Shown here piece by piece: positions 1,701-16,005 of a stretch of DNA of 64,000 nucleotides. The stretch is from assembly GCA_031291675.1 (NCBI GenBank), contig JARLIO010000025.1:1-64000 (forward strand), in the 5' to 3' direction. Positions within the stretch are counted from its first letter, which is position 1; the number at the start of each line of letters is the position of its first letter. The DNA is from Azospirillaceae bacterium. Its GTDB lineage: Bacteria; Pseudomonadota; Alphaproteobacteria; Azospirillales; Azospirillaceae. A program made the position numbers and the translations under genes. The notes under the pieces were generated by a model. The model saw nothing but the letters and a program-made list of their open reading frames with translations. It did not search any database and had not been told where the DNA came from.

Positions 1701-3011
1701 TTATCGAACAAACGATGGAAACCGCGCAACATTCAATTGCGCATCGCAGTACTCTGAATTATTTCTATCGTCATGAATAATATTGTCAATTTTCTGAAGC
1801 AAAACATTCCACGCCGTCAAATCCGCGGGAGCTTTATTTTCAAATCCGTGAATCAGAATACTATAATTTCTATTCTTAACATCTTTTATATCATCGCCAA
1901 TAAGGCTTTTTGCCAGATCATCGTTCAGGAATTTAAGGAATCTTGCCGCCTGCTCCCGCGGCATTTGCAAACAACCATCTTTCATGGTCGGTAGCGTCGA
2001 GTTGCTTTTCCGAAGCTTTTTTTGAAATTCCTGGACCGCCGCAGTGAGTGGAATTCGGGCGCTGTCGTAGCCACGATCAAACAGACGGGCTTGACCCACC
2101 AACTCCAACAATCGGTAGCAACGGACCAGCGCATCCTCGAACTGGCCTTGGCGCACGCGTCGTTCGGCATTGGCAAAAAGGTCAATGATCAACAGACGCA
2201 ACCAGTCGGCGCGGGCCTTGAAATCATCGTCCCCGGGCTTGTCCGCCAGCCGATGGATCCAGTTGATCTCCGCCTCCTTGGGAAGGGTGGCAATCCAGTC
2301 CGCTGGGAGATCGGCCGCCGAGGGCAGCGGCAACGATGCGGCCTTCGCATGATCCAGACGGTCCCAGGCGGAGAGAAAGCGGGCGACTTGCCGGGCCGCT
2401 TCCAGCGCGGTGCTGTCCGTCGATGTCGGCCCGAGGCCCGAGAAGGGATGGCTTGGATCCGGCAGCATCTGCCCCAACAAATCGTCGGCCGCCGCAAAAG
2501 CGCCATCGCGCAGCAACCGGTAGGCCATGTCCTGCGTACGACGGGCCAACGCCCGTATCGGAGAAATGTGCCGGATCGTCTCCGTGCCGGCAGTGACCAT
2601 GCCGCGCCCATCGCGCTCACCGGAGATATAGCGCAGACTGCTGATTCCATTCCGCACGCCGGCCAGCACCAGGGCCGCGCTCATCGCCTTTGTACCCCGC
2701 GTGAAATCCGCGGTAATTTCGTCCACCATGCAGCCTGATTGACGAAGATCACCAATGACCTGATCAAACCAATCGAAACAGGCATCCGGATCATTTTCAG
2801 CGCCGGCTTTGGGCAATGGCCGGATTTCAATGCCATGATGCGCCGCCAATACCTCCAAGTGCTGTGCATTGCCTTCGGTTTCGTGCGAGGGCAGCAGGAC
2901 GATGCGGCCCCATTCGCCATCGCCGATCGATTTCATCAGGGGATCGAACAGTGTCTGCTTGAGATTCTCGCGGTCACCGGTACCAATGGTCAGAATCAGC
3001 GTCCTCGTCAT
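1701..3011 (-). CDS. CRISPR-associated CARF-HEPN protein, TIGR02710-like
   Basis: A 436-residue protein. Residues 1-150 look like a CARF domain: the N-terminal strand LILTIGTGD (residues 5-13) and the signature ADFTRGTKAMSA (101-112). Family members usually have a glycine where this protein has R105. The C-terminal half is helical (ALVRCYRLLELVGQ) and ends with RNYSILIH (about 381-388), an R-x6-H HEPN ribonuclease motif. By analogy with Csm6/Csx1 proteins it should bind cyclic oligoadenylate made by Cas10 and cleave RNA. It is the last gene of the csm operon, 84 bases after cas6. The final 290 bases, which encode the HEPN active site, are clearly more AT-rich than the rest of the operon. Confidence 0.82.
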   Translation of the reverse strand: MTRTLILTIGTGDRENLKQTLFDPLMKSIGDGEWGRIVLLPSHETEGNAQHLEVLAAHHGIEIRPLPKAGAENDPDACFDWFDQVIGDLRQSGCMVDEITADFTRGTKAMSAALVLAGVRNGISSLRYISGERDGRGMVTAGTETIRHISPIRALARRTQDMAYRLLRDGAFAAADDLLGQMLPDPSHPFSGLGPTSTDSTALEAARQVARFLSAWDRLDHAKAASLPLPSAADLPADWIATLPKEAEINWIHRLADKPGDDDFKARADWLRLLIIDLFANAERRVRQGQFEDALVRCYRLLELVGQARLFDRGYDSARIPLTAAVQEFQKKLRKSNSTLPTMKDGCLQMPREQAARFLKFLNDDLAKSLIGDDIKDVKNRNYSILIHGFENKAPADLTAWNVLLQKIDNIIHDDRNNSEYCDAQLNVARFPSFVR

Positions 3012-3095: not shown

Positions 3096-4076
3096 TTACG
3101 CCAAACTGACTTCGCCAAAGCCGAAAACTGTTTCCTTGCCAACATGGATGCGGGTGGCGAGACGCAGCAGCGAGAGCACGGATGCCGGGATCTCTTGCCA
3201 CACCATCTGGCCGACAACGCCACCGAGGATCATGGCCTGATCCTGCCTGCGAGAATAACGCCGCCAGTCCTGCCAACGAAGCGCCTGGTCAGAGCGGATG
3301 CCATCCGCCTCTCCCAGCCACGTCTCTACAGGCCAGTCTCGAACATTGGCCTGAGCGGCCGGCGTCCCACATTGCGCCGTCAGGATGCGAACCCGTCGAA
3401 CGACGTCACCAACAAGGCGCCGTGGCGTGATGTCGGCTGGCCGTAGTGGCCGACCTTTGACCTGGAGACGCAGCGGCGTGCGAAAATCCAATGTCACCTT
3501 GGTCTGCGTGGTCGTTTCGGCCTCACCATCGGTCAGGACCGGATTCTCCGGCAACACGGCGCCGAGTGTTCCCGTGTCGCAGTCATAGAGCGCCACAGGC
3601 GCATCTGCCTGCGGGGCGACAGCCCACACCCCTGTCAGTCTGGCCCGGCCACGCATCGGACCAAGGCCCCGGGCGAGCGCTTGTCGCCACGATTGAACCA
3701 CAAAGGGCAACCGCTCAATACCGGACCCGAAAAGCCGCATACCGAACGTGAAGAACTGTCCTTTCTTCAGGATCAACGCGCCCCCCTTCGGCGGCAGGAT
3801 CACATAAGGCGGACTGCCATTGCTGACCCTACGCTCAACCCCGACGCAATCAAGTGTGAGCGGGGCCGGCTCGAACAGAACGGGATAGGGGCAGGTCTGC
3901 TGCAACGGGCAACCGTCACACGCTTTCCGCCCGGTCATGCAGGCGATCCGCCGGAGTGCGGCCCCATAAGCGCCACGGAGAACCGAACCTGCGAATGCCG
4001 GCAGGAAAAGGGGCTCCAACGCCTCGCCGTCGATCGTCAAATCCAGAACAGGGAAAGGCGCGCTTTGAAGAATCAT
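3096..4076 (-). CDS. cas6: pre-crRNA processing endoribonuclease Cas6
   Basis: A 326-residue RAMP protein that cuts the array transcript within each repeat. It opens with a ferredoxin-like strand and a loop FAGSVLRGAYGAALRR (28-43). A four-cysteine cluster (C46, C53, C56, C62) follows, as in the Cas6 subfamily with a likely zinc knuckle. It ends with the glycine-rich VFGFGEVSL typical of Cas6. Its ATG overlaps the stop of csm5 by four bases (ATGA), so translation is probably coupled. The repeat hairpin (CCCC-loop-GGGG) and the 8-base 3' end ATTGAGAC fit cleavage by such an enzyme. The catalytic histidine cannot be named from sequence alone. Confidence 0.88.
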   Translation of the reverse strand: MILQSAPFPVLDLTIDGEALEPLFLPAFAGSVLRGAYGAALRRIACMTGRKACDGCPLQQTCPYPVLFEPAPLTLDCVGVERRVSNGSPPYVILPPKGGALILKKGQFFTFGMRLFGSGIERLPFVVQSWRQALARGLGPMRGRARLTGVWAVAPQADAPVALYDCDTGTLGAVLPENPVLTDGEAETTTQTKVTLDFRTPLRLQVKGRPLRPADITPRRLVGDVVRRVRILTAQCGTPAAQANVRDWPVETWLGEADGIRSDQALRWQDWRRYSRRQDQAMILGGVVGQMVWQEIPASVLSLLRLATRIHVGKETVFGFGEVSLA

Positions 4077-5608
4077 TGCTTCAGCGCACCCAGCCGGCGC
4101 TCAAGGTAGCTCCTCTCGCCAGGCGCTGAAAGAAGCGGCATGGCCTTTTCTTCGATCAGACGCACCAGCAACAGCCGCTCCGCTGCAGACCAGCCTCTTG
4201 AGGCTTGTCTCAGGTAGTTTTCAATCATGGGTCCGGGTGCTTCCCGCATTTTGAAGGTTTTCCCCAGCCCCGCTTGTCGTTCAAGTTCGTTTTCGAGCCG
4301 TTCGAGCTTTTCCTCGTTATCCGTGGTTGCGGCCGCAACGATCCTGGATGCCGGGGGTGCGGCCATCGCCACCTCCGGCGCGGTCGCCGTTATCACGATT
4401 GCCGGACGTTTCGACCGGACCGGCCAGCCCGCGCCACTGTGTTCCGCCTGTGCCGCGCACCAATCGCGAACCTTTTGGCTCGGCTCGTCCGCAAATTCCA
4501 CCAGCGCCCAGCCGAAAGGTTGTCCCGTTTTGGCCTCGTCATCCCCGGCCAGCCAGAAAGTCGTCCCCTTGTCGCGGTCTTCGCAATCGCTTCTGCTGAC
4601 CTTTACGCGGATGCGGCAATCCCGGCGCGTTTTGAATTCAGCCGGACAGAATTTCCCCAGCCGGATCAGCATGGCCGAGCCGCTGTCAAGCTCTGCCGCC
4701 ATTGTCTTTTCGACAAGCCCGGTCATGTCGTTGAGCCAGGGCTGATCCACGACGCCGAGATTGCGCATTTGTGCGGTATGGCTGTCAAAACGCCCGCGAT
4801 GAAACGCGGTGCATGCGATGGCAAGGTCCTTTAACGAAGGAAGCTGAACCGCCATTTTCCCGTCGAGGCTGGTTCGTCGCCAGGCCCCGCGGAAGGCACC
4901 CGCAACCAGCGGGGAGATCACCTCAACCTTGACAGGAAGGCCCTTACCCTTCTGCGACGACGTCCGTTTCACATTGCGCGCCACCACGACGCAGGTCGCA
5001 ACATCGTCACCGGCAACACAGTCCTCAACGCTCAGCAAGCGGAAGGGATCGGTCTGAAAACGTCCCCCCAGGATATCTTTGTCCTTCTCGCCCCGTGCCC
5101 CTTGCCCCAGACGATGGTCAACCCAGGCCGTCTTGAGCGCGCCCTTCATGCTGGAGCCCGGGATGATGGCCCGTCCGCATAAATTGTTGAACACGGTTCG
5201 GGCAATGGCGATCGCGTTGATCGTGTTGATCGTGTTGATCCTGACTTCGCCGGGTCCGGCCGCTCTTTGCACATTGTGGCCAAACTTCCCGGCGATGTCG
5301 TCGGCGAGGCGGGGCGGAATGGCGATGTCCGCGATTTCCGCTTTGGCGAACACCTTCTGATGGTCGCGGTAGAGCTTTTGCAACGCCACCAGAACCGTTC
5401 CCGCATTGCCACTGCCCGCCGACTGATCGATGCATTTGGTCAGTGCCGCGGCCAGTTGCGCCGATAACGTGACCCGCAGCGGATCGAACAGCACCAACCG
5501 GCCCGGCTCAACGAATGCGCTGGTCCAGTCAACGTCAACCGCGCTGCCGATATGGATCGGCGACAGCGGCGTCACCCAGAACGCCTGGCGTTCGAGAAAG
5601 CGGGTCAT
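4073..5608 (-). CDS. csm5: type III-A RAMP protein Csm5
   Basis: I start this gene at ATG 5608 (MTRFLERQAFWVTPLSPIHIG), which overlaps the csm4 stop by four bases. The open frame upstream is only a shadow of csm4. The 511-residue product has the Csm5 N-terminal motif (LSPIHIGS at about 14-21) and the RAMP loop AIIPGSSMKGALKTAW near residue 150. Csm5 caps the 3' side of the Csm backbone and helps crRNA trimming. The protein is longer than most Csm5 (roughly 350-400 residues). The excess is at the C-terminus, which has an Ala/Pro-rich linker, a charged coiled-coil-like segment (EEKLERLENELERQ) and more helices. A short tandem repeat in the gene encodes INTINTINA. Confidence 0.88.
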   Translation of the reverse strand: MTRFLERQAFWVTPLSPIHIGSAVDVDWTSAFVEPGRLVLFDPLRVTLSAQLAAALTKCIDQSAGSGNAGTVLVALQKLYRDHQKVFAKAEIADIAIPPRLADDIAGKFGHNVQRAAGPGEVRINTINTINAIAIARTVFNNLCGRAIIPGSSMKGALKTAWVDHRLGQGARGEKDKDILGGRFQTDPFRLLSVEDCVAGDDVATCVVVARNVKRTSSQKGKGLPVKVEVISPLVAGAFRGAWRRTSLDGKMAVQLPSLKDLAIACTAFHRGRFDSHTAQMRNLGVVDQPWLNDMTGLVEKTMAAELDSGSAMLIRLGKFCPAEFKTRRDCRIRVKVSRSDCEDRDKGTTFWLAGDDEAKTGQPFGWALVEFADEPSQKVRDWCAAQAEHSGAGWPVRSKRPAIVITATAPEVAMAAPPASRIVAAATTDNEEKLERLENELERQAGLGKTFKMREAPGPMIENYLRQASRGWSAAERLLLVRLIEEKAMPLLSAPGERSYLERRLGALKQ

Positions 5609-6558
5609 GGGCCGTATCCTCCGCTTTCGTCCAGCAGGACCGGCATCACCGGGGCGTAGCCCTGATGCACGGTTTCGGGGATGACCTGCGACAGTTCTCC
5701 ACCACCGCCGAGCCCGATCCCCATGACGTACCGTTTGAAATCCGGCGTTGCCGGCGTCAGCACCGCCCCGGTATCCATCAGCAGCACCGGTGTCTTGAAC
5801 GGCCGCATCAGGGCACCAATGCCACCGTGCCGGCCAAACCGGGTGAAAGGCCGATAGAAGCAGCGTTCTTCGTGCCAAGCCTGGCCCTGGGGCGCGGTTG
5901 GCGCCAACGTCATCCAGGCATTGGCGCCCGAGATCGCGGATGGCCGCCCGCCGCAATGGGCTTCAATCTCAAAGCGGCCAAGCCCCAGCGAACCATCCCG
6001 GCCGTAACCGGTGGCGCCGACATCCGTCAGCAATGCCAGCAAGTCGGCCAACGGCAACCGCACGGGATCATGCACCAGGTGCAGATCGAGCCGCAGCCCC
6101 GGGGCAGGCCACAATTGTTCCAACTGATAGGGGGCGAAATCCCCCTCGCCGGTCGTGGCGGTGTCGCGGCGAATGCTGTTGTGCGCCTGGGATTGCGGCG
6201 AAAACGGCCTCGGTGGCGGTGCCTCGGCGGCGGCCGCCTCAAGCCCCGCGGCCAAGGGCCGGGCGAAGACGGAGGCCGGCAGATAGCGTCGGCGCTTCCA
6301 TTGCTTGCGCTCCTCGGGCTTGACCGCTTGGGGCCAAAACCGGGGCGGAAGTTCGGGACGGGGCAGATGACCGGCCGGGAACGCATCGGATACCACCAGG
6401 AACGGCGCCCCCTGGGTATAGCCGGCCAGAAGCGCACGCAATCCGGCCTCACCCTGGCGATAGCGCGCCGCCCAGCACAACTGGCCGAACAAGGTATCGC
6501 CACGCAGGACCGAACCGAAGGCCGACACCGGTCGGATCGTCACCTGAACCCATTCCAT
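5605..6558 (-). CDS. csm4: type III-A RAMP protein Csm4
   Basis: A 317-residue Cas5-group RAMP. The N-terminus carries the pattern of Csm4: VTIRPVSAFGSVLRGDTLFGQLCWA, in which the GDTLFG-like loop is characteristic. The C-terminal part has GATGYGRDGSLGLGRFEIE, the glycine-rich region that holds the crRNA 5' handle, and a late GGGGELS segment. Csm4 sits next to Cas10 at the foot of the complex. ATG 6558 is the probable start; a GTG precedes it at 6561. The gene follows csm3 after a few bases and overlaps csm5. Confidence 0.88.
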   Translation of the reverse strand: MEWVQVTIRPVSAFGSVLRGDTLFGQLCWAARYRQGEAGLRALLAGYTQGAPFLVVSDAFPAGHLPRPELPPRFWPQAVKPEERKQWKRRRYLPASVFARPLAAGLEAAAAEAPPPRPFSPQSQAHNSIRRDTATTGEGDFAPYQLEQLWPAPGLRLDLHLVHDPVRLPLADLLALLTDVGATGYGRDGSLGLGRFEIEAHCGGRPSAISGANAWMTLAPTAPQGQAWHEERCFYRPFTRFGRHGGIGALMRPFKTPVLLMDTGAVLTPATPDFKRYVMGIGLGGGGELSQVIPETVHQGYAPVMPVLLDESGGYGP

Positions 6559-6564
6559 CACGGA

Positions 6565-7284
6565 TCACGCGGCCGGCGAAGACATCAGGAACGGATCCTG
6601 CGGCAATGCGATAGTCCGGCCGTCACAGGTGAGATCGCGCAAATGGACCTTGCCATACCCGCGCGAGCCCGCCCCGCCCAGGCTTTCCAGTTCCAGCAGC
6701 GCCAGTCCCTGCAACAACGTGCCCAGAAGATCGGGGTCGCCTTCGAAAACCCGAAGCGTCGCACGGAAGGCGAACACCGCACCGGCTGCGACACGCTCGG
6801 TCTGGCGCAAGCCTGTGTCCGCGGTTCCGGTGATGCGATTGATGGCGGTTTCCGCCTTGATCTCGATGAACGACAAGTTGGAGGCCTTGATCCTTTGGGC
6901 AAAGCCCGCGTCCAAACCGGCGTCGTGGAAACTTGCGCGCGACGGCCCGATCGCCTTGGCTGCTTCTTCGTCGACTTTCTCGCCTCCGCCCAAACCGAAC
7001 AGCCTCACAATCCGCCCGACCTCTTCGTGCTGCGCTCCGGTGCAGCCTTGGAAATTTTCGTAGCTCAAGGGACGTTCCTGGACGGCGCCGGAGCGCCATT
7101 CCAGCAGCGACCGGACTTTGCCTTTGAGACTGGAGCCGGGAATGTAGGGCTCGCGGGTCAGGGGATGCCGGACGACCGGCTTGTCGACGCCGCCGATGCG
7201 CATTTCCGTATCGCCCGCACCGATATGCAGCCCGGTGAGCAATTCCAGGCTGGCCCGGATGTCCTTGATGGCGGTGAGTTTCAT
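6565..7284 (-). CDS. csm3: type III-A backbone RAMP protein Csm3 (target RNA cleavage)
   Basis: A 239-residue Cas7-family protein, the repeated backbone subunit that cuts target RNA every six bases. It shows GLHIGAGDTEMRIGGVDKPVVR (from residue 18), the RAMP loop YIPGSSLKGKVRSLLE, ETAINRITGTAD and a C-terminal LGGAGSRGYGKVHL. The aspartate of IGGVD is D34 and corresponds to the catalytic aspartate known from studied Csm3 proteins (D32/D33), so target slicing should be intact. The ATG overlaps the csm2 stop (ATGA). Length is normal. Confidence 0.93.
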   Translation of the reverse strand: MKLTAIKDIRASLELLTGLHIGAGDTEMRIGGVDKPVVRHPLTREPYIPGSSLKGKVRSLLEWRSGAVQERPLSYENFQGCTGAQHEEVGRIVRLFGLGGGEKVDEEAAKAIGPSRASFHDAGLDAGFAQRIKASNLSFIEIKAETAINRITGTADTGLRQTERVAAGAVFAFRATLRVFEGDPDLLGTLLQGLALLELESLGGAGSRGYGKVHLRDLTCDGRTIALPQDPFLMSSPAA

Positions 7285-7688
7285 GATGACCTCTCACGGG
7301 ACTTCGGCGAAAAGCCGATGACGGCCTCAAACAAAAAACGAAAATTCTGCAGCGTCTCGACGCTAGTGACCTGTGCCAGGCACTTCCGCATGAATATTTT
7401 GAAGTTCTCGTCGACCAGATACTTACCATCCACCTTGCGTTCACCGGCGTAGGCGACACGGGCATTGATCATGCGAATGAAAGGCAACGCCTTCTTCAGG
7501 CTATCTTGATGTTCGACGGGGTCCCACAGGCGATCACCAAACCGCGACACTTCATCGTAGAAGCGCCGGATCTGCGTGGGTTTATTGGAGTCACCTTGCG
7601 CCAGTTTCTGCGCGATTGCTTGGGCCGTGCCGTCGAACAACGCCGGATCCGGTGTGGCAAGGTTGATCAATTTTGCCAGATTTTCCAT
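7281..7688 (-). CDS. csm2: type III-A small subunit Csm2
   Basis: A 135-residue, mostly helical protein (Cas11-type) that forms the inner filament of the Csm complex. The segment KPTQIRRFYDEVSRFGDRLW and the later INARVAYAGERK with ENFKIFMRKCLAQV match the usual Csm2 layout. ATG 7688 shares one base with the cas10 stop (TGATG), and the 3' end overlaps csm3 by four bases. Csm2 contacts the crRNA-target duplex but has no catalytic role. Confidence 0.85.
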   Translation of the reverse strand: MENLAKLINLATPDPALFDGTAQAIAQKLAQGDSNKPTQIRRFYDEVSRFGDRLWDPVEHQDSLKKALPFIRMINARVAYAGERKVDGKYLVDENFKIFMRKCLAQVTSVETLQNFRFLFEAVIGFSPKSRERSS

Positions 7689-10321
7689 CACCCCCTCACT
7701 GTGTAAAGCTGGTCGCTCACCACGATCCGATATTTCGCCTGCATCCGCCCGATCCCGCGTTCGCCGATTTCCTGGATGATCGCCGCAAGCGCCGCGTCGG
7801 TCCCGGACACATCACGCAAATAGCGCCGGGTACGGTAGAAAAGCAGGCTGCGCCACCGGGCGTTTTGCGGTCGGTCTTTCACTTTGGCGGCCATGTCGCA
7901 CAGCGCCAGAACATCGTGGAGATAGGCCGTCGGCAGCGCATGTTCGTCGACCAGCGTCGCCAGCGCCGTGCCCCGTTCGCGCAGCATGTCGTACTCCCGC
8001 CATTCCAGGGTCCGGCCCTGGAGATGAATAGCGTTCTTGCCGGTCCTCGCCTTGGCGTGCGCCAGCGCCTCTTCCGCCGCATCGCCCAGCAGGCGCAACG
8101 GATGGCCCGGCTTGACCATGATAAAACCGGCGGAAAAGCTCAGTTTCGGGTTTTCCGCGCCGTATTGCGCGAAATCCTGCCGCACCGTTCCCGCAAAATC
8201 CTTCAAGGTCCGCCACGGCCCGACGAAAAAGAAATCATCGCCACCCGCGAACACGGTATAGACGTTGCGGTACCGGGCGTCGTCGTGGCAGCGCCAGGGT
8301 AGCCAGGTTGCAAAGAACGCGTTCATCCGCCGCGACAAGGCTGCCCATTTGGCGAAGGTCGGGTTGTCGCCAAGGGCGGTGCGAAACAACAGGCCAAGAT
8401 TGTCGACATCCCCCTTCAGCACGCCCAGGGCCGTCACCCCATACAGACCTTCGTCGCCCCGGTCCTCCTGGTCATCGCGGGCCAGATGTTCGAAGGTCTT
8501 GATGTCGCCCGTCTTCGCCGTTTCTTTCAGCCCGTCATAGCGCCGGTCATCTTCGGCGCCGTCCCGGAACACCGGCACATGGGCATTGATCGGACGGCGC
8601 GCGATGCCGTGCCAGAGCGGGGCGTCACCATCCAGCGGCAACGACAGATCGAAGGCACGGCGCAACGTACCGGCCCTGGCGAATTCCCCGAAAGATCCGC
8701 TGGCCTCTTCGTCCCGGGTCAAAAGCATGCGGTAGCCGAAGATATCGCTGCGCAACAGACCGGTATTGTCACGCAGCCCGCCCGCCGCCGCATCGAACAC
8801 CAACAGGCGGCTATAGTCACGATCCGCCAGCAACCGACCCAGTGTCCTCTGGTCCAGGCTGAACGGATGCGCCCACCGCGTCCCCCCGGACTCGGGGTCC
8901 TCCACGGTTGCCGGCAGACGACCGTCCAGGTGGCACACCCCGTTGGCGAAATCGGTATCGCGGATCGCGGCGGGTGCCGTCTGCCCGCACAAACCGAAAC
9001 GCCGGCTTTTGGCATCGTCCAGGGCCTCCCCCAGTCTGTCAAGCAAGCCCTTGAACCCGCGCGCCTCGCCCTTGGTCAGGAAATCACGGCCGCAGGCTTC
9101 GGTTGCAGCCAGGGCGATGGAGGCAAGGCCGAAGGAGTGCTTCAGGAACCAATCGTCGAGCCGCTGGCGGACCATCGCCAACGCCGCCTTCACGTCCGGG
9201 GTGTTGGGGGCGACGATCAGGAACTTGCCGGCGGCATTGATAATCTGCGCCGTGGCCGGCAGCGCCAAATCGTCGAGCACGCGCAACGCCGCCAATTCGG
9301 TCAGCAGCGCCACCATCGCCGAACGCCCGCGCAGCAGCCTGGCCGCTCCCTTCTGGGTCAGGGACGCGGCACCGAAGATGAAATCCTGGATGCCGCAGAA
9401 ATCACCCTGGATCAGCAGGAATTTCTTATCGTCATAGTCGTCCCGGTCCTTCAGCCGCCGCGCCACCGCCGCGGCATCGTCGCCGCGCTCGGCGTGATAG
9501 CGCCACATCGCCACCGCCAGGGCCGCCGTCGTTTTGGCGTGGTCGTAAAGCGAAACATCGGGACAAACATCGAAGGCGGTCGCCGAGGGAATGGCATGGG
9601 CCACGCTCAGCCACAGGCTGTCGAGATGGTCAACAAACAGCGGCCAGCAGGCCCGATGCGACACCGGGATCTGCTTGGCCCCCGCGAGCAATGCGTCCCA
9701 CAGCCGAACATAGTTCGCCTGTGCCATCTTGACATCGGGCTCGGCATCCCTGACCGGGAACAGCGCCCGGGGCGACAGCGAAGCCAGGGGATAGCGCCAC
9801 CTCAAATCATCTTCCTGCGCCGCTTTCGCCTTGCCGTACGCCTCAAACGCCACCAGCAACCGGGTACGAACGTGATGGTCGCGATCCCGCTTACCGTTAT
9901 AGTCCGCGAACTGTTCGCGCTTGAAACCGGAAGCCAGACGGTCGCCGGTCGCCACACACCATTGCAGGAAGGTATCGGGCTTGTGATGGGCCGCCGCCGC
10001 GTTGATCAGTGAATCCGTGGGATCGCAATCCCCGCCTTCGCCGCCCCGGGGCGCGAACGGGCGCGGATCACCCGCCACCAGGTCGGGCAGCCACGGCTCA
10101 AGGTGGTCGAACGCCAGCGCCGTCGCCGCCGCATGCAGATGGGTGAACCAGCCGCCATCCTTGCCTCGATGATACGGACAATAGAGCTGGCGATTGCTCT
10201 CGATCGCGGGATCCCTGGCGAACACGCCGGCGCGCTCGGCAAGCTTGCCGAGATCGTGCAGGAAAGCCGCCAGCGCCATGCGGCACCCGGCATCCATCCA
10301 CTGTGCGCGATCAAGCGCCAT
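7688..10321 (-). CDS. csm1: Cas10/Csm1, HD nuclease and cyclic oligoadenylate synthase
   Basis: An 877-residue large subunit of the Csm complex. The N-terminal HD domain is complete at its signature: FLHDLGKLAER with H22-D23, the ssDNase centre. The second palm domain carries VFAGGDDFFFVG with GGDD at 693-696, the motif needed to make cyclic oligoadenylates from ATP. The order HD, inactive palm, linker, active palm, C-terminal helices is as expected. It is the first gene of the leftward csm operon, and its ATG faces the divergent cas2-cas1 unit across 138 bases. With both catalytic sites kept, the system should use DNA cleavage and second-messenger signalling. Confidence 0.95.
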   Translation of the reverse strand: MALDRAQWMDAGCRMALAAFLHDLGKLAERAGVFARDPAIESNRQLYCPYHRGKDGGWFTHLHAAATALAFDHLEPWLPDLVAGDPRPFAPRGGEGGDCDPTDSLINAAAAHHKPDTFLQWCVATGDRLASGFKREQFADYNGKRDRDHHVRTRLLVAFEAYGKAKAAQEDDLRWRYPLASLSPRALFPVRDAEPDVKMAQANYVRLWDALLAGAKQIPVSHRACWPLFVDHLDSLWLSVAHAIPSATAFDVCPDVSLYDHAKTTAALAVAMWRYHAERGDDAAAVARRLKDRDDYDDKKFLLIQGDFCGIQDFIFGAASLTQKGAARLLRGRSAMVALLTELAALRVLDDLALPATAQIINAAGKFLIVAPNTPDVKAALAMVRQRLDDWFLKHSFGLASIALAATEACGRDFLTKGEARGFKGLLDRLGEALDDAKSRRFGLCGQTAPAAIRDTDFANGVCHLDGRLPATVEDPESGGTRWAHPFSLDQRTLGRLLADRDYSRLLVFDAAAGGLRDNTGLLRSDIFGYRMLLTRDEEASGSFGEFARAGTLRRAFDLSLPLDGDAPLWHGIARRPINAHVPVFRDGAEDDRRYDGLKETAKTGDIKTFEHLARDDQEDRGDEGLYGVTALGVLKGDVDNLGLLFRTALGDNPTFAKWAALSRRMNAFFATWLPWRCHDDARYRNVYTVFAGGDDFFFVGPWRTLKDFAGTVRQDFAQYGAENPKLSFSAGFIMVKPGHPLRLLGDAAEEALAHAKARTGKNAIHLQGRTLEWREYDMLRERGTALATLVDEHALPTAYLHDVLALCDMAAKVKDRPQNARWRSLLFYRTRRYLRDVSGTDAALAAIIQEIGERGIGRMQAKYRIVVSDQLYTVRG

Positions 10322-10459: not shown

Positions 10460-10738
10460 ATGAGCCGGAACCTTTACCTTGTCGTCTACGACATCAGCTG
10501 CCCGCGGCGATTGAAAGCCATTGGCCGTATGGTCAAGGCACACAAGACGGCCGGACAAAAGTCCTTGGCTGAATGTTGGATGGAAATGAGCGAACGCGAT
10601 TGCCTTCTCCGGTCCCTCGCGATCCGAATCGACCCGACATGCGACAGACTGCATGTCTTTCGTCTCGATCCACGCCAGACTCCACGTTTGTTCGGGATCG
10701 CCAAAACCGACCGCGGAGGTCCCTTTATGATCGTGTGA
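10460..10738 (+). CDS. cas2: Cas2 (first copy)
   Basis: A 92-residue Cas2. The first strand is LYLVVYDIS with the conserved aspartate of YDI. It is followed by RRLKAIGRMVKAHKTAGQKSLAECWMEMS, the helix and second strand of the ferredoxin-like fold. Strands IRIDPTCDRLHVFRLD complete the core. Cas2 bridges two Cas1 dimers in the spacer-insertion complex. The gene begins the rightward adaptation unit, 53 bases before cas1. It is clearly different in sequence from the second Cas2 at 11729. Confidence 0.85.
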   Translation: MSRNLYLVVYDISCPRRLKAIGRMVKAHKTAGQKSLAECWMEMSERDCLLRSLAIRIDPTCDRLHVFRLDPRQTPRLFGIAKTDRGGPFMIV

Positions 10739-10791
10739 TTCCGAAACCGGACCCAATACTTCCCCAACGCTTCAAGGAGAGGACTACGGTC

Positions 10792-11757
10792 ATGAGCAGC
10801 CTGTACGTCGATCGCCGTGGCGTCGAAATCGGCATCGACTCCGAAGCGCTCACCTTCCACGAGAACGGTGTGCGGGTGGGAACCGTTCCGATCGCGCCGC
10901 TGGAACGGGTGTATCTGCGGGGTGATATCCGCCTTGCCACGGGAACGCTGGGCCGGCTTGGGGCGCACGGGGTTGGGGTTATCATTCTGTCCGGACGCCG
11001 CGCCGAACCAACCTTGTTCCTGCCCCGTCCGCACCATGATGCCAGGCTTCGGGTAACCCAGCTTCGCTGGGAGGGAAATCCGGCCCGCCGTCTTGAAGTC
11101 GCTGGCTGGGTCCTCAAGGCCAAACTGTTGGCGCACCAGGCCCTGCTTGCAGAACTGGCGGAGGCCCGGCCGGAGCTGCGAGGCCCCCTGCTTCACGCGG
11201 CCGAGATCCTGGACGGAATGCACCGGCACATTGCGTCCAAACCCGATACCGATGCGCTCCGAGGTCTGGAGGGCGCGGCCGCGGCAGCCTATTTCGGGGC
11301 CTTGGTATCGATCTTTCCCCAGGCACTTGGCTTCACCGGACGCAACCGGCGTCCGCCGCGCGATCCCGTCAATGCCGTCCTGTCGCTTGGCTATACCATG
11401 CTGAACGCCGAAGCCGTCCTCACCACCCATGGTCACGGCTTCGACCCCTATGTCGGATTCCTTCATGCGCTTGATTTCGCCCGCCCCTCACTGGCATGCG
11501 ACGTCATGGAACCGCTGCGCCCGGTGATCGACCGCTTCGCCTGGCGGCTTTTCGCCGAACAAACGGTGCGGGCGCGCGATTTTTCCACCGAGAAGGACGG
11601 TTCCTGTCTGCTGGGCAAGGCGGGCCGGGAACGCTTCTACCAGGCCGTCGATGAACCGCTGACCCGGGCACGCAAACGTCTGGACGCGCTGTTGTCGGCG
11701 TTGCGATCGGTATTGCTGGAGGCCGAAGATGGCAGGGCTCTACCTGATCAGCTATGA
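10792..11757 (+). CDS. cas1: Cas1 integrase of CRISPR adaptation
   Basis: I choose ATG 10792 (MSSLYVDRRGVEIGIDS), preceded by AAGGAGA at 10774-10780; the open frame extends further upstream but is not Cas1-like. The 321-residue product has the N-terminal beta domain and the helical catalytic domain with all metal ligands in the normal context: E160 (LRGLEGAAAAAYF), H225 (FDPYVGFLH) and D237 (LACDVMEPLRP). Cas1 cuts the leader-repeat junction and joins new spacers. The 3' end overlaps the second cas2 by 29 bases. Confidence 0.95.
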   Translation: MSSLYVDRRGVEIGIDSEALTFHENGVRVGTVPIAPLERVYLRGDIRLATGTLGRLGAHGVGVIILSGRRAEPTLFLPRPHHDARLRVTQLRWEGNPARRLEVAGWVLKAKLLAHQALLAELAEARPELRGPLLHAAEILDGMHRHIASKPDTDALRGLEGAAAAAYFGALVSIFPQALGFTGRNRRPPRDPVNAVLSLGYTMLNAEAVLTTHGHGFDPYVGFLHALDFARPSLACDVMEPLRPVIDRFAWRLFAEQTVRARDFSTEKDGSCLLGKAGRERFYQAVDEPLTRARKRLDALLSALRSVLLEAEDGRALPDQL

Positions 11758-12202
11758 TATCGCCGATCCGAAACGCTTGGTCCGCCTGCACCGGCGGTTG
11801 AAGAATCTGGCGACCCCTATCCAATATTCGGTGTTCCTGGGTCGCCTGACCGACAATCAGCTGTGCCACTGTGTGACGATGATCGAAGCAACCATTAATC
11901 CCCGCGTCGACGACGTGCGCATCTATCCCCTGCCCGAAACGGGCTGGTCACGCCGGCTGGGCCATCCGCTGTTTCCCACCGGCATCATCCATACCGACAT
12001 GCCGGAGACCTTCGACGCATTGCCGGAACTGACGGCGGGTGAAGCCACCGCCGGGGCGGAAACCGCCGACACCCCCTTGCCGGCGCTTCCCCAGCCGCAG
12101 CCCTGCGCCATTCCTCAATCCCGCGCCGAAGCCAACGCCGCCCGCACCTTGCGCCGCAACCAACGCACCGGTGTCGTCACCGGATTGCTGTTGATCCCCT
12201 AA
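11729..12202 (+). CDS. cas2: Cas2 (second copy) with C-terminal extension
   Basis: A 157-residue protein. Residues 1-95 are a Cas2 ferredoxin fold (YLISYDIADPKRL, RRLKNLATPIQYSVFLG, DDVRIYPLP). The last 60 or so residues are unusual: an Ala/Pro/Thr/Glu-rich, probably unstructured tail ending in a short basic stretch (ARTLRRNQRTG) and VVTGLLLIP. The start overlaps cas1, so the two are translationally linked. Having distinct Cas2 proteins on both sides of one Cas1 is not the common layout. The tail may hold a partner or control assembly, but this is inference. Confidence 0.85.
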   Translation: MAGLYLISYDIADPKRLVRLHRRLKNLATPIQYSVFLGRLTDNQLCHCVTMIEATINPRVDDVRIYPLPETGWSRRLGHPLFPTGIIHTDMPETFDALPELTAGEATAGAETADTPLPALPQPQPCAIPQSRAEANAARTLRRNQRTGVVTGLLLIP

Positions 12203-12336
12203 GCCCACTGTGACACTGTTCTCCCCACGGATGATGAGGCGGCCGATGCCCAACAACCTATCTCCGGCACCGCCCCCTCCACCGTCTAAGGGTCTTGATA
12301 CATCGTTGATATGTAAACGGAAATGCCCCGACCGCA
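12203..12336 (+). promoter_or_regulatory. CRISPR leader
   Basis: This is the 134-base gap between the second cas2 and the first repeat. It sits on the side of the array opposite the degenerate terminal repeat, as a leader should. The stretch nearest the array (about 12294-12330) is locally AT-rich, which suits a promoter, but I cannot fix -35 and -10 boxes with confidence. Transcription from here would run rightward through the array. Confidence 0.6.
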
Positions 12337-13634
12337 GTCGAAAGACTGCCCCGTTCTTCAGGGGATTGAGACCTCGTGATCGGTAGTATTGCGTGAACGC
12401 TTGGGTCGAAAGACTGCCCCGTTCTTCAGGGGATTGAGACTCGCTTCGGGGTAGTCCGGCTGTCCGGTCTCGGTCGAAAGACTGCCCCGTTCTTCAGGGG
12501 ATTGAGACTCTCCCCGCACGTTGGTCAGGTTGCCCCGCACGCCGTCGAAAGACTGCCCCGTTCTTCAGGGGATTGAGACGCTTGCCCCGCGATGCTGACA
12601 AACTCTTCGGTCTTTCGTCGAAAGACTGCCCCGTTCTTCAGGGGATTGAGACTCGACTCGCGCCGGGAAGGTCGTGTTGTAGTTTACGTCGAAAGACTGC
12701 CCCGTTCTTCAGGGGATTGAGACATGCCACTGCGGCAGCTATGTCAATATATTTTTGTCGAAAGACTGCCCCGTTCTTCAGGGGATTGAGACTTCGCTAC
12801 AAATCCCTTTGGACAGCCATTCCACGTCGAAAGACTGCCCCGTTCTTCAGGGGATTGAGACCCGCCGCATCCATTCGGTGCTGTCGTTTATTTCCGTCGA
12901 AAGACTGCCCCGTTCTTCAGGGGATTGAGACCATGATTTTTTCCCCTAGTTAAGTTCGTCTCGTTAAGTCGAAAGACTGCCCCGTTCTTCAGGGGATTGA
13001 GACGTCCGGCTGCCACTCGAGCAGACTGGCATCGCCGTCGAAAGACTGCCCCGTTCTTCAGGGGATTGAGACCCGTCGGTGAGATCCGCGTCGGTGAGCT
13101 TGGCGTCCGTCGAAAGACTGCCCCGTTCTTCAGGGGATTGAGATATGACTCAACCCTCCATCAAAGCGGCATAGGAACGTCGAAAGACTGCCCCGTTCTT
13201 CAGGGGATTGAGATATTAGAAATTCGTCGCTCTATCCGATTGAGCTACGTCGAAAGACTGCCCCGTTCTTCAGGGGATTGAGATGCTGAGGTCGGCCCAC
13301 CTGAGGTTGGCGCCTCTGGTCGAAAGACTGCCCCGTTCTTCAGGGGATTGAGATGGCACCGGTGAAGTCGACCCTCCGGAGATCGGGTCGAAAGACTGCC
13401 CCGTTCTTCAGGGGATTGAGATCCACCCTCGCCCGCCATGGCCGTGCCACGGTATCCGTCGAAAGACTGCCCCGTTCTTCAGGGGATTGAGATATCAGGG
13501 TATAGACGCTGTTGTTAACTTCTTTCGGGTCGAAAGACTGCCCCGTTCTTCAGGGGATTGAGATGTCCGTACGGAACCCGTATTCCCGATCCAACCCAGT
13601 CGAAAGACTGCCCCGTTCTTCAGGGGATTGGGAC
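12337..13634 (+). CRISPR. CRISPR array, 19 repeats and 18 spacers, type III-A
   Basis: A 36-base repeat begins GTCGAAAGACTGCC and ends TTCAGGGGATTGAGAC, with a CCCC/GGGG hairpin around GTTCTTCA. Repeat starts: 12337, 12405, 12473, 12544, 12617, 12688, 12757, 12826, 12896, 12968, 13037, 13109, 13179, 13249, 13319, 13387, 13458, 13529, 13599. Spacers are 32-37 bases. Repeats 1-11 end in GAGAC, 12-18 in GAGAT, and the last in GGGAC. The degenerate last repeat and the ATTGAGAC 3' end (an 8-base crRNA handle after Cas6 cutting) point to rightward transcription. Spacer 13 matches part of a tRNA-Arg. Spacers 11, 14 and 15 encode pentapeptide repeats on the opposite strand. Confidence 0.98.
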
Positions 13635-13740
13635 GCGCATCTGGCATTGCCACTCGGATGAGGGGTAATGTCTCGACTGAGAGGTCGGAGGCTGTTTTGT
13701 GATGGTCGCGGCCAATCTGGCGATTGACCGGGAGTCCCCG

Positions 13741-14856
13741 ATGAAACCTGTGTTCATTTTTGGGGTCGGACGTACGCCCCAGATTGTGACCGAGACGTTA
13801 TGGGCGGTGTTGCATCACGAGGGAAGGCAAGCGCTGGCGGGGTGCATTCACATTCTAACCACGGCCGTGGGCGCGACAGCGGTGGAAAACGGGCTGCTGG
13901 GTGCCGGCGGCGCCCTCGCCCGTTTTTACCGGGACTATGATGTCGCGCCGATGCCGCTGATTCTTCACGTCTTACGCGATTCCGCGGGAACGGCGGTCGT
14001 CGATATCCGCAACGAGGCCGATAATACCCGCCTGGCCAATCTGATCTGCACGGTGATCCGCGATCTCACCGCCACCCCGGATCACGCGGTCCATGCCTCG
14101 GTCGCCGGCGGACGCAAGACCATGAGTTTCTATATCGGCTATGCATTGTCGCTGTTTGGCCGGCCGCAGGACCGTCTCAGCCATGTGCTGGTAGCGGAGG
14201 ACTTCGAATCTGCGGCGGATTTCTGGTATCCCCCGCCGTGTTCCACGCCGTTTCCCCTGACCGATGGCCGGACGCTCGACGCCGCCACCGCCATGATCTC
14301 GCTGGCGGAGATTCCCTTCCTACCGCTGCGCGACCGCCTGGATGCGCCGGTGTTGCAGACCGCCGCCCCTGATTTCAGCGAGGTCGTGGCCGATTTGAAG
14401 CGTCGGCTGGCGCGCCCGGTGTTGGAACTCGTGCCGCACCAACGCCTGCTCCGTTTCGATACCCTGGAATTGCGCCTGCCGCCCGATCAGTTTGCGGTGT
14501 ACCAACTTCTGGCCCTCTATCGTCTGGAGGGGGAGCCGGACGGCGGCTGGCTGCGCAAGACTGACCTTGCGACGGTGGAAACACCCGCCTGCAAGCGCTG
14601 GCTCGCGCTCTATCATGAGGTCGCCACCCGTTCTCCCGAAGTGCAGAGCCTGCGCCGGGCCATCGATACGACCATCACGGATTTGGGGACGCCGTGGAAT
14701 CCGTACTCGGAAAAGGTCGCAAAGGTGAACAGACTTCTAGTCAAGGCTGCACAAACCAGCGACTTGTGGCGCGACGCGCTCTGCGAACGCCAGGGCCGGC
14801 CCCACGCCGCCGCCCGCCTGACGCTGCCCCCATCCCGGCTGCGCGTGGTCTCGTAA
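13741..14856 (+). CDS. CRISPR-associated CARF protein, NE0113 family
   Basis: I prefer ATG 13741 (MKPVFIFGVGRTPQIVTETLWAV), with GGGAG seven bases upstream; in-frame starts at 13699 and 13702 also exist. The 371-residue protein matches the NE0113/TIGR02584 family. It has the N-terminal GxTPQ(I/V)VTETL motif, HILTTAVG, and SVAGGRKTMSFYIGYALSLFGRPQDRLSHVLV in the second half of the CARF fold. The C-terminal 120 residues (LPPDQFAVYQLLALYRL onward) look like a helical, possibly winged-helix, domain with no HEPN motif. It probably senses cyclic oligoadenylate. Whether it regulates transcription or degrades the messenger is unknown. It lies just downstream of the array. Confidence 0.8.
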   Translation: MKPVFIFGVGRTPQIVTETLWAVLHHEGRQALAGCIHILTTAVGATAVENGLLGAGGALARFYRDYDVAPMPLILHVLRDSAGTAVVDIRNEADNTRLANLICTVIRDLTATPDHAVHASVAGGRKTMSFYIGYALSLFGRPQDRLSHVLVAEDFESAADFWYPPPCSTPFPLTDGRTLDAATAMISLAEIPFLPLRDRLDAPVLQTAAPDFSEVVADLKRRLARPVLELVPHQRLLRFDTLELRLPPDQFAVYQLLALYRLEGEPDGGWLRKTDLATVETPACKRWLALYHEVATRSPEVQSLRRAIDTTITDLGTPWNPYSEKVAKVNRLLVKAAQTSDLWRDALCERQGRPHAAARLTLPPSRLRVVS

Positions 14857-14994: not shown

Positions 14995-16005
14995 TCAGTG
15001 ATTGGAAGGTCGCGGGAAAAGGGCATCCAGATTGGTTGCATCGACGGCCGCATCAAACCAGTCATCGAGCACCGATATGTCGGCCTGGACGACCCGTTGC
15101 CGGACCGCGTCGGGAACCAAACCAAATCGGCGGGCCAGCAGGCGAAGCAGCGCATCCCTTTTGCCTTCAGCCATACCTTCGGCCTTGCCTTCGGCTTTGC
15201 CTTTTGCTTCCCCTTGAGCCAACCCCTGCTTAATTCCTTCGTCGAAAAACGGTTGCGTGATGCTTCCCATGATTTCCTCCTCGCGGGCCGGAGCCACCCG
15301 CCGCAGGGCGGCGCGCACCGTTTCAGGATCCACCATCCCAGGTCCTTTATCAATATAGGTCAACACCAGCAGCACATCCACAAGATCGAGGGTTGCCACC
15401 TCGGCCAGGACCACATCGATTCGCTCGCTGAGATCGGGACGTAGCACATATTTCAGTGCCTTCAGGAGGGCGCGCAGACGAATTTGCTGGGACAATGCGC
15501 CATCGTCGATACGGCCAAGATCGGCCAGGGCATAGTCGAAGGCGGGAAGGTACGGTGCGATCTCTGGCGGCAAAGCGCCGAACAAAGCCTGAAAGTGTGG
15601 AGAGATCGTCCAGGTGCGAAGGCCGTGGTAGACCACGAGCGGAATCACGACCGGCAATGGCCGGCCGTGACCCTGCTTGATCCAGCCATCCCAGATACGG
15701 GTCAAATAGCGAAGGACCTGTAAGGCAACCAGTGGTTCGGGAGCGCTTTTATGTTCAACCAGGACAAAGATCAGAAGGTCTCTGTCCCCTTGGGCAAAGC
15801 GGGTGCGGAACAGCAGGTCGGAATGATGCTGTGCAAGCTCTTCATCGACAAAGGAGCCGGGCAGCAGCTCCGGTGGTTCGCGGGACAGCAGGGCTCCCAC
15901 TTCGGGCGGCAGACGCTCGCGCAGGAACAAACCGGCTGTTGCCGGTTCGCTCATCAATTGCTTGAAGAACGCGTCGTGGATGTTGCCGGATACGGGGCTG
16001 GACAT
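14995..16005 (-). CDS. Rpn-family recombination-promoting nuclease / putative transposase
   Basis: A 336-residue protein of the Rpn (Transposase_31, PD-(D/E)XK) family. The N-terminus HDAFFKQLMSEPATAGLFLRERLP is diagnostic. The nuclease core follows with SDLLFRTRF (first Asp), LLIFVLVEHKSAP (E-x-K) and LQVLRYLTRIWDGWI. Then come VVIPLVVYHG and a long helical region. Near the C-terminus the tract GEAKGKAEGKAEGMAEGK is the Gly/Glu/Ala/Lys repeat common in this family. Known members cut DNA and promote RecA-independent recombination. The ATG is at 16005. It lies between the CRISPR locus and tRNA-Glu. Confidence 0.88.
   Translation of the reverse strand: MSSPVSGNIHDAFFKQLMSEPATAGLFLRERLPPEVGALLSREPPELLPGSFVDEELAQHHSDLLFRTRFAQGDRDLLIFVLVEHKSAPEPLVALQVLRYLTRIWDGWIKQGHGRPLPVVIPLVVYHGLRTWTISPHFQALFGALPPEIAPYLPAFDYALADLGRIDDGALSQQIRLRALLKALKYVLRPDLSERIDVVLAEVATLDLVDVLLVLTYIDKGPGMVDPETVRAALRRVAPAREEEIMGSITQPFFDEGIKQGLAQGEAKGKAEGKAEGMAEGKRDALLRLLARRFGLVPDAVRQRVVQADISVLDDWFDAAVDATNLDALFPRPSNH

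Follow-up and report, generated by a model that had tools for sequence, protein, structure and literature searches.

Why does a CRISPR array carry a spacer that reads as a piece of a tRNA gene, and would the corresponding guide be aimed at the tRNAs of the host or at those of an invader? The question is raised by the window analysed here, a stretch of 64,000 nucleotides from an Azospirillaceae bacterium (contig JARLIO010000025.1), in which a CRISPR array at 12337..13634 (+ strand) comprises 19 repeats of 36 nt and 18 spacers. All 19 repeats are at most one base away from the commonest form, and the repeat is present at one place only in the assembly. The 34 bases at 13215..13248 (+ strand), singled out as spacer 13 by the initial annotation, make up exactly one spacer, flanked by the repeats at 13179-13214 and 13249-13284 and ranking 13th of 18 when numbered from the cas2 side. 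Their reverse complement, GTAGCTCAATCGGATAGAGCGACGAATTTCTAAT, follows the order of a tRNA: base 7, T8, A9, the D arm, base 26 (a G), ACGAA, TTTCTAA and base 39. Here ACGAA is the 5' side of the anticodon stem and TTTCTAA the loop, with the anticodon TCT in register, so that coordinates, strand and anticodon register had all been given correctly.

Resemblance to tRNAs was quantified as ungapped identity on both strands against a library of 70 unique tRNAs, in which spacer 13 reached a best value of 32/34. The library behind this maximum is biased, as it includes viral tRNAs that were fetched because they resemble the spacer; even so, the host tRNAs alone gave 26/34 and 28/34, above every control value. 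The best identity was 25/34 among 3,000 mononucleotide shuffles of the spacer and 24/34 among 2,993 random 34-mers of the window (7 of 3,000 had been dropped for being close to a tRNA-Pro gene), and the 125 other spacers compared, 17 from the same array and 108 taken from seven further arrays located near Csm1 genes, reached 22/35 at best. That the likeness arose by chance is a reading for which we found no supporting point, and its probability is negligible: shuffles and window 34-mers stayed below the 28/34 of host and the 32/34 of viral tRNAs, and all 18 viral contigs retrieved with a degenerate pattern (see below) carried tRNA-Arg(TCT) at the site. Chance likeness was rejected on the shuffle and 34-mer control, and spacer 13 was thereby confirmed as a piece of tRNA-Arg(UCU), as had been claimed; it spans bases 7-39, with a likeness beyond chance. 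The Rfam tRNA model, too insensitive for 34 bases, left the fragment unreported at E <= 5, as expected for a piece so short. Likewise in keeping with such a length, individual blastn matches between the 34 bases and phage tRNA genes had E values no better than 0.1.

The array belongs to a complete type III-A system with Cas6, Csm6, Cas1 and Cas2. Encoded on the - strand are a csm6/csx1-type CARF-HEPN protein (1701..3011; PF09670, TIGR02710 3.2e-36), cas6 (3096..4076; PF10040, PDLC01477 4e-76, no NCBIfam match), a csm5-like RAMP protein (4073..5956, a mechanical ORF whose start is probably too far upstream), csm4 (5605..6561; TIGR01903, PDLC01494), csm3 (6565..7284; TIGR02582 4.9e-59), csm2 (7281..7691; PF03750, TIGR01870) and cas10/csm1 (7688..10321; TIGR02578 3.7e-173). 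On the + strand follow cas1 (10573..11757; PF01867 5.3e-68, TIGR00287), with no reverse transcriptase family listed among its matches, and cas2 (11729..12202; PF09827, TIGR01573). The profiles for Csm1, Csm2, Csm3 and Csm4 (TIGR02578, TIGR01870, TIGR02582 and TIGR01903) scored above their cut-offs; the set of Cas10/Csm1 and Csm2-Csm5 is thus present, with a weak Csm5 assignment (PF03787 1.1e-5, 26.5 bits vs a cut-off of 22.1; PADLOC Csm5 2.9e-6; no NCBIfam match). The Cas10/Csm1 translation, read by eye, shows GGDD and HD motifs, so that the locus combines a cyclase motif with a predicted CARF-HEPN effector. Compared with known type III-A (Csm) systems, the locus shares Cas10/Csm1, Csm2-4, a Csm5-like protein, Cas6, Csm6, Cas1, Cas2, 36-nt repeats and a predicted handle; we found nothing structural that sets it apart, and what differs is that the target of spacer 13 would be a structured non-coding tRNA. 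Directly 3' of the array, on the same strand and separate from the main cas operon, lies a CARF protein of the NE0113 family (13699..14856, + strand; PF09623, TIGR02584 3.3e-53), a family that NCBIfam names CRISPR-associated ring nuclease Csm6. Transposase-type genes flank the CRISPR locus at 491-784 and 14995-16005 (both - strand; HTH_Tnp_1 and Transposase_31, YhgA-like), so the locus may have moved as a unit.

The handle at the 3' end of the repeats, together with the position of the array after cas1-cas2, suggests that crRNAs are read rightward and that the crRNA of spacer 13 would hence be antisense to the tRNA, in support of the orientation first assumed. The repeats end in ATTGAGAC or ATTGAGAT, which we take to be the usual type III handle form, and the predicted handle sequence of the locus is ATTGAGA(C/T); in repeat 19, the one farthest from cas2, it is altered to ATTGGGAC. 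With a length of 8 nt, presumed from type III crRNAs, the predicted 5' handle of spacer 13 (ATTGAGAT) lies at 13207..13214 (+ strand), at the end of repeat 13179-13214, and on the rightward reading the crRNA would begin ATTGAGAT-ATTAGAAATTCG. A probable leader, assigned from its position between cas2 and repeat 1, spans 12203..12336 (+ strand); a consensus promoter scan of this interval found none. Rfam models for CRISPR repeats gave higher scores for the minus strand than for the plus strand, though none reached its gathering score. Along the array (12337-13634), the 3' ends of the repeats switch in blocks inside the crRNA handle, from GAGAC in repeats 1-11 to GAGAT in repeats 12-18 and GGGAC in repeat 19. 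Being far from cas2, spacer 13 is probably one of the older entries.

An antisense guide against a host tRNA would be aimed at an essential RNA, the worry that the initial annotation had voiced. We found that no place in the 5.87-Mb assembly besides spacer 13 itself lies within 3 mismatches of it, and when the whole array was compared with the assembly by blastn, 15 short matches (E 0.08-6.8) were returned besides the array itself, none of them convincing. When the spacer was aligned to 39 unique host tRNAs, tRNA-Arg(UCU) itself showed 23/34 identity (11 mismatches), tRNA-Arg(ACG) 26/34 (8 mismatches) and tRNA-Arg(CCG) 24/34 (10 mismatches), and the remaining 36 reached at most 22/34. One of the 15 blastn matches led to a host tRNA-Arg(CCU) gene that the tRNA family search had missed, located at L089:1496-1790 (contig C88 of the host genome, G000). 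It is interrupted right after the anticodon by a 218-nt insert, with boundaries set by us, which resembles the Rfam group I intron RF00028 at 30.4 bits (E 1.1e-5), below the gathering score of 50. The joined exons are recognised by ARAGORN as tRNA-Arg(cct) and are 28/34 identical to spacer 13 (6 mismatches), the unspliced form 26/34. Spliced tRNA-Arg(CCU) is the closest host RNA found, and no near-exact self match was detected; since the assembly consists of 99 contigs with 97.71% completeness, a host tRNA could be absent from it. The worry is thus largely answered for the UCU, ACG and CCG species, and the spliced CCU species comes closer.

The D-arm half that spacer 13 has in common with host tRNA-Arg, the basis of the 26/34 (ACG) and 28/34 (spliced CCU) identities, would also fit a spacer taken from a host tRNA-Arg gene that drifted later. 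Such a self origin is very improbable, because 7 of the 11 mismatches to host tRNA-Arg(UCU) fall at crRNA positions 1-14 (numbered from the handle), because viral tRNAs attain 32/34 and because a drift of 6-11 bases in one spacer is hard to reconcile with 19 repeats that have hardly changed; with nothing within 3 mismatches and tRNA-Arg(UCU) at 23/34, we rejected it.

Phage genes are the likelier source. Among 50,697 phage records, 100 had a match to spacer 13, and all of the 60 matches listed had E values of at least 0.1. Among these matches, 11 records reach a query coverage of at least 80%; they are from Vibrio, Serratia, Pectobacterium and Aeromonas phages, and 9 of the 11 are annotated with a tRNA-Arg at the site (the other 2 carry no annotation there). 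An exact protospacer was not found: the exact 34-, 23- and 19-mers of spacer 13 occurred in 0 IMG/VR viral contigs, its 22-mer core in 0 contigs of the genome collection, and the 82 genomes of the host family held no match except spacer 13 itself. The nearest viral matches were 32/34. An anticodon-arm pattern, GAGCNACGAATTTCTAATTCG, retrieved 3 viral contigs, each with an ARAGORN tRNA-Arg(TCT) at the site. A second pattern, degenerate and anchored in the D arm, retrieved 18, one of them already among the former 3, and here ARAGORN called tRNA-Arg(TCT) in 18/18, with identities of 29-32 of 34. Because both patterns derive from the spacer, likeness to it was built in; the presence of tRNA-Arg(UCU) in all matches was not. 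Thirteen of the 18 pattern loci carry two to twelve tRNA genes.

The best viral matches are two loci at 32/34 each, L052, which differs from the spacer at crRNA positions 14 and 24 and has a tRNA-Leu as its neighbour, and L104, which differs at 10 and 14. Base 26 is an A in all 18 D-arm pattern matches, while the spacer implies G26. The 46-kb contig that holds L052 (G083) encodes a terminase large subunit, a portal protein, a DNA polymerase, a primase and a major head protein (protein scans of 10 and 9 proteins, with matches for 4 and 5). None of the other spacers matched the sequence fetched from the three viral contigs found first (best 24/36); these phages can therefore be no more than relatives of the source, which is probably an unsampled relative. 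In sum, spacer 13 shares with phage tRNA-Arg(UCU) genes the anticodon UCU, the D loop and the anticodon arm, with no more than 32/34 bases identical, and differs in being a 34-base antisense copy held as a spacer, with G26 for A26. Given the two 32/34 viral contigs and the tRNA-Arg(UCU) in all 18 pattern contigs, we infer, with a probability of roughly 80%, that spacer 13 comes from a phage tRNA-Arg(UCU) gene and lies in antisense register, in agreement with the phage-encoded source first suggested.

A source in a plasmid, an integrative element or the chromosome of another bacterium with a tRNA-Arg(UCU) gene also has to be weighed, as integration often occurs at tRNA genes. Integration at tRNA genes is also described for an archaeon (PMC3718332). 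The plasmid set contained 8 records with weaker matches. The fullest of these, with 84.4% identity over 32 of 34 bases (E 0.9), lies in a record of 4.9 Mb from Aeromonas caviae that is, judging from its size, a chromosome; tRNAs of this general look are therefore not confined to phages. Such a non-phage source is nevertheless unlikely. The anticodon-arm pattern was found in 3 viral contigs vs 0 contigs of the genome collection, and spacer 13 corresponds to the 5' half of the tRNA, although integrating elements usually rebuild the 3' half of the gene. In addition, a search of the assembly at <= 2 mismatches with a 26-base piece of the 3' half of the host tRNA-Arg(UCU) gene found that piece only once. 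Together with the 23/34 identity of the host gene, this led us to reject an element integrated at that gene, which had been offered as the alternative source and found no support.

If the spacer indeed stems from a phage tRNA, a guide so similar to host tRNA-Arg would have to spare the latter. Of the crRNA, positions 1-13 face base 39 together with the loop and the 5' stem strand of the anticodon arm, position 14 faces base 26, and positions 15-34 face the D-arm side. Mismatches near the crRNA 5' end are reported to block or reduce cyclic-oligoadenylate synthesis by the Cmr complex of T. thermophilus, which also needs a 3' seed for binding (PMC8376896), and by the Csm complex of S. solfataricus, which tolerates them well elsewhere (PMC6053304). 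For S. marcescens Csm, a preprint gives +1, +2, +4, +5, +7, +8, +10 and +11 as the sensitive positions (PMC13060164), and every sixth base is described as unpaired (PMC8376896, PMC13060164). In the S. epidermidis system, mismatch blocks in this area are reported to leave phage targeting intact (PMC6053304). A need for pairing at positions 1-11 in the present system is thus drawn from other type III systems. Leaving out position 6, L052 is fully paired over 1-11, and the host tRNAs mismatch there at 1, 8, 9, 10 and 11 (UCU), at 4, 8, 10 and 11 (ACG), at 1, 4, 8, 9 and 10 (CCG) and, in tRNA-Arg(CCU), only at 10 when spliced and at 2, 3 and 10 when unspliced. Altogether, 24 of the 35 mismatches to the four host tRNA-Arg species (CCU spliced) fall at positions 1-13, in the anticodon arm. 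By analogy with the systems cited, the UCU, ACG and CCG species look safe from spacer 13. L104 mismatches within 1-11 at position 10, as host tRNA-Arg(CCU) does, so the two could not be told apart through the activating region. For tRNA-Arg(CCU), sparing would depend on the mismatches at positions 10, 13 and 14 and on how the tRNA is folded.

Mismatch and handle pairing had both been proposed as ways of escape. Over handle positions -2 to -5 (G-U counted), the flank of L052, TCGTAGGT, pairs at -4 only and that of host tRNA-Arg(UCU) at -5 only, so that the flank of this near match, which is not an exact protospacer, is essentially unpaired, and handle-based escape does not seem to play a part for the host tRNA. 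Since most of the host mismatches lie in the region where pairing activates Cas10 in the systems studied, mismatch rather than handle pairing probably spares the host, in line with the former suggestion rather than the latter.

Mature tRNA is folded, modified and charged, and its accessibility to the crRNA is therefore doubtful; the precursor transcript would be the likelier target. We propose that spacer 13 is the memory of a tailed phage encoding its own tRNA-Arg(UCU), and that the III-A (Csm) complex carrying its crRNA would recognise by base pairing either the phage tRNA itself or, with greater probability, its unfolded precursor transcript. Pairing would set off cleavage by Csm3, activate Cas10 and start cyclic-oligoadenylate signalling to Csm6, and the host tRNA-Arg species would be spared mainly through differences under the 5' part of the crRNA. 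That spacer 13, in addition to its origin, also works in this way has about even odds. The same phage origin is compatible with an idle spacer, taken up at random from phage DNA and prevented by tRNA structure from pairing productively, a quite conceivable outcome that we rate somewhat below even. In the type III-B system of Marinomonas, spacers are reported to be taken up in either orientation, host-derived antisense spacers being selected against (PMC5576922), so antisense orientation, not rare by chance, is weak evidence of function. The spacer also lies far from cas2. The orientation deduced for the crRNA, and the complete pairing of L052 over the activating region, are what would be expected of a working spacer, but one spacer cannot separate the two. 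If idle, spacer 13 would be an ordinary phage memory. Overall, it seems to be an immune memory of the ordinary kind whose target is unusual.

More tentatively, and with a probability that we regard as low, the III-A system may sense infection through the phage tRNA or through its precursor, distinguished from host tRNA-Arg by the anticodon arm. The idea comes from the layout of the guide, in which the activating positions 1-11 lie on the anticodon loop and stem and the conserved D arm falls under the 3' binding part. If true, aiming a spacer at a phage tRNA would at the same time hit a counter-defence factor. The intron-bearing host tRNA-Arg(CCU), which over the activating positions differs at position 10 only once the unpaired position 6 is set aside, would then mark how near to self type III-A immunity can operate. 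As tRNAs are conserved, the case offers a natural setting in which to test how similar host RNAs are avoided in type III immunity, and host tRNA-Arg(CCU) at 28/34 and the phage tRNA at 32/34 form a ready pair for measuring the activation threshold.

According to PMC11555353, phage tRNAs can counter the tRNA-cleaving defences retron-Eco7 and PrrC, and a role against tRNA-cleaving defences is likewise proposed in PMC10264068. With those systems the present case shares phage tRNAs as players in an arms race; there, the tRNA is attacked as the effector step, whereas here a CRISPR guide would be aimed at the phage tRNA. Such a guide would close a loop in which phage tRNAs aid survival of the attack on host tRNAs. 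Cas12a3, described as a CRISPR nuclease that is triggered by RNA and cuts the tails of tRNAs (PMC12851939), is another instance of CRISPR immunity touching tRNA, but, as described there, it cuts tRNA upon recognising another RNA, and in our case the tRNA would be the target of the guide. In the open-licence full text of PubMed Central we found no described CRISPR spacer against a phage tRNA; one may exist elsewhere.

Csm1 was found in 5 of 385 genomes of the class and in 14 of 398 of the phylum (the present genome counted in both). In stretches taken around all 17 other Csm1 loci, some clipped by contig ends or by a 20-kb limit, a simple array finder detected arrays in 7 of the 17, with 108 spacers. 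None of these was tRNA-like against the 70-tRNA library (best 20/33), a survey that is too small to give the rate or rarity of tRNA-derived spacers.

Regarding the other spacers of the array, the whole array gave no match to phage records at E <= 1, and a 25-base core of spacer 17 occurred in 0 viral contigs. Spacer 14 matched 3 phage records at E 4-5, and spacer 11 matched 119, of which the 10 listed have E 4-5. Against plasmids, the whole array gave a single match, of spacer 2 to pTX1, a conjugative plasmid of Thauera sp. K11, which was discarded as too weak (E 0.1, 88.6% over 35 bases, five of them in the repeat; 26/32 for the spacer alone). The stretch of pTX1 that spacer 2 (12441-12472) weakly resembles has no listed gene and lies near a tyrosine recombinase gene. 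Finally, the reverse complements of spacers 3, 11, 14 and 15 (12509-12543, 13073-13108, 13285-13318 and 13355-13386) read by eye as pentapeptide-like repeats, with the translations GVRGNLTNVRG, DAKLTDADLTD, RGANLRWADLS and DLRRVDFTGA, respectively, so that the crRNAs of these four spacers would be antisense to such genes.
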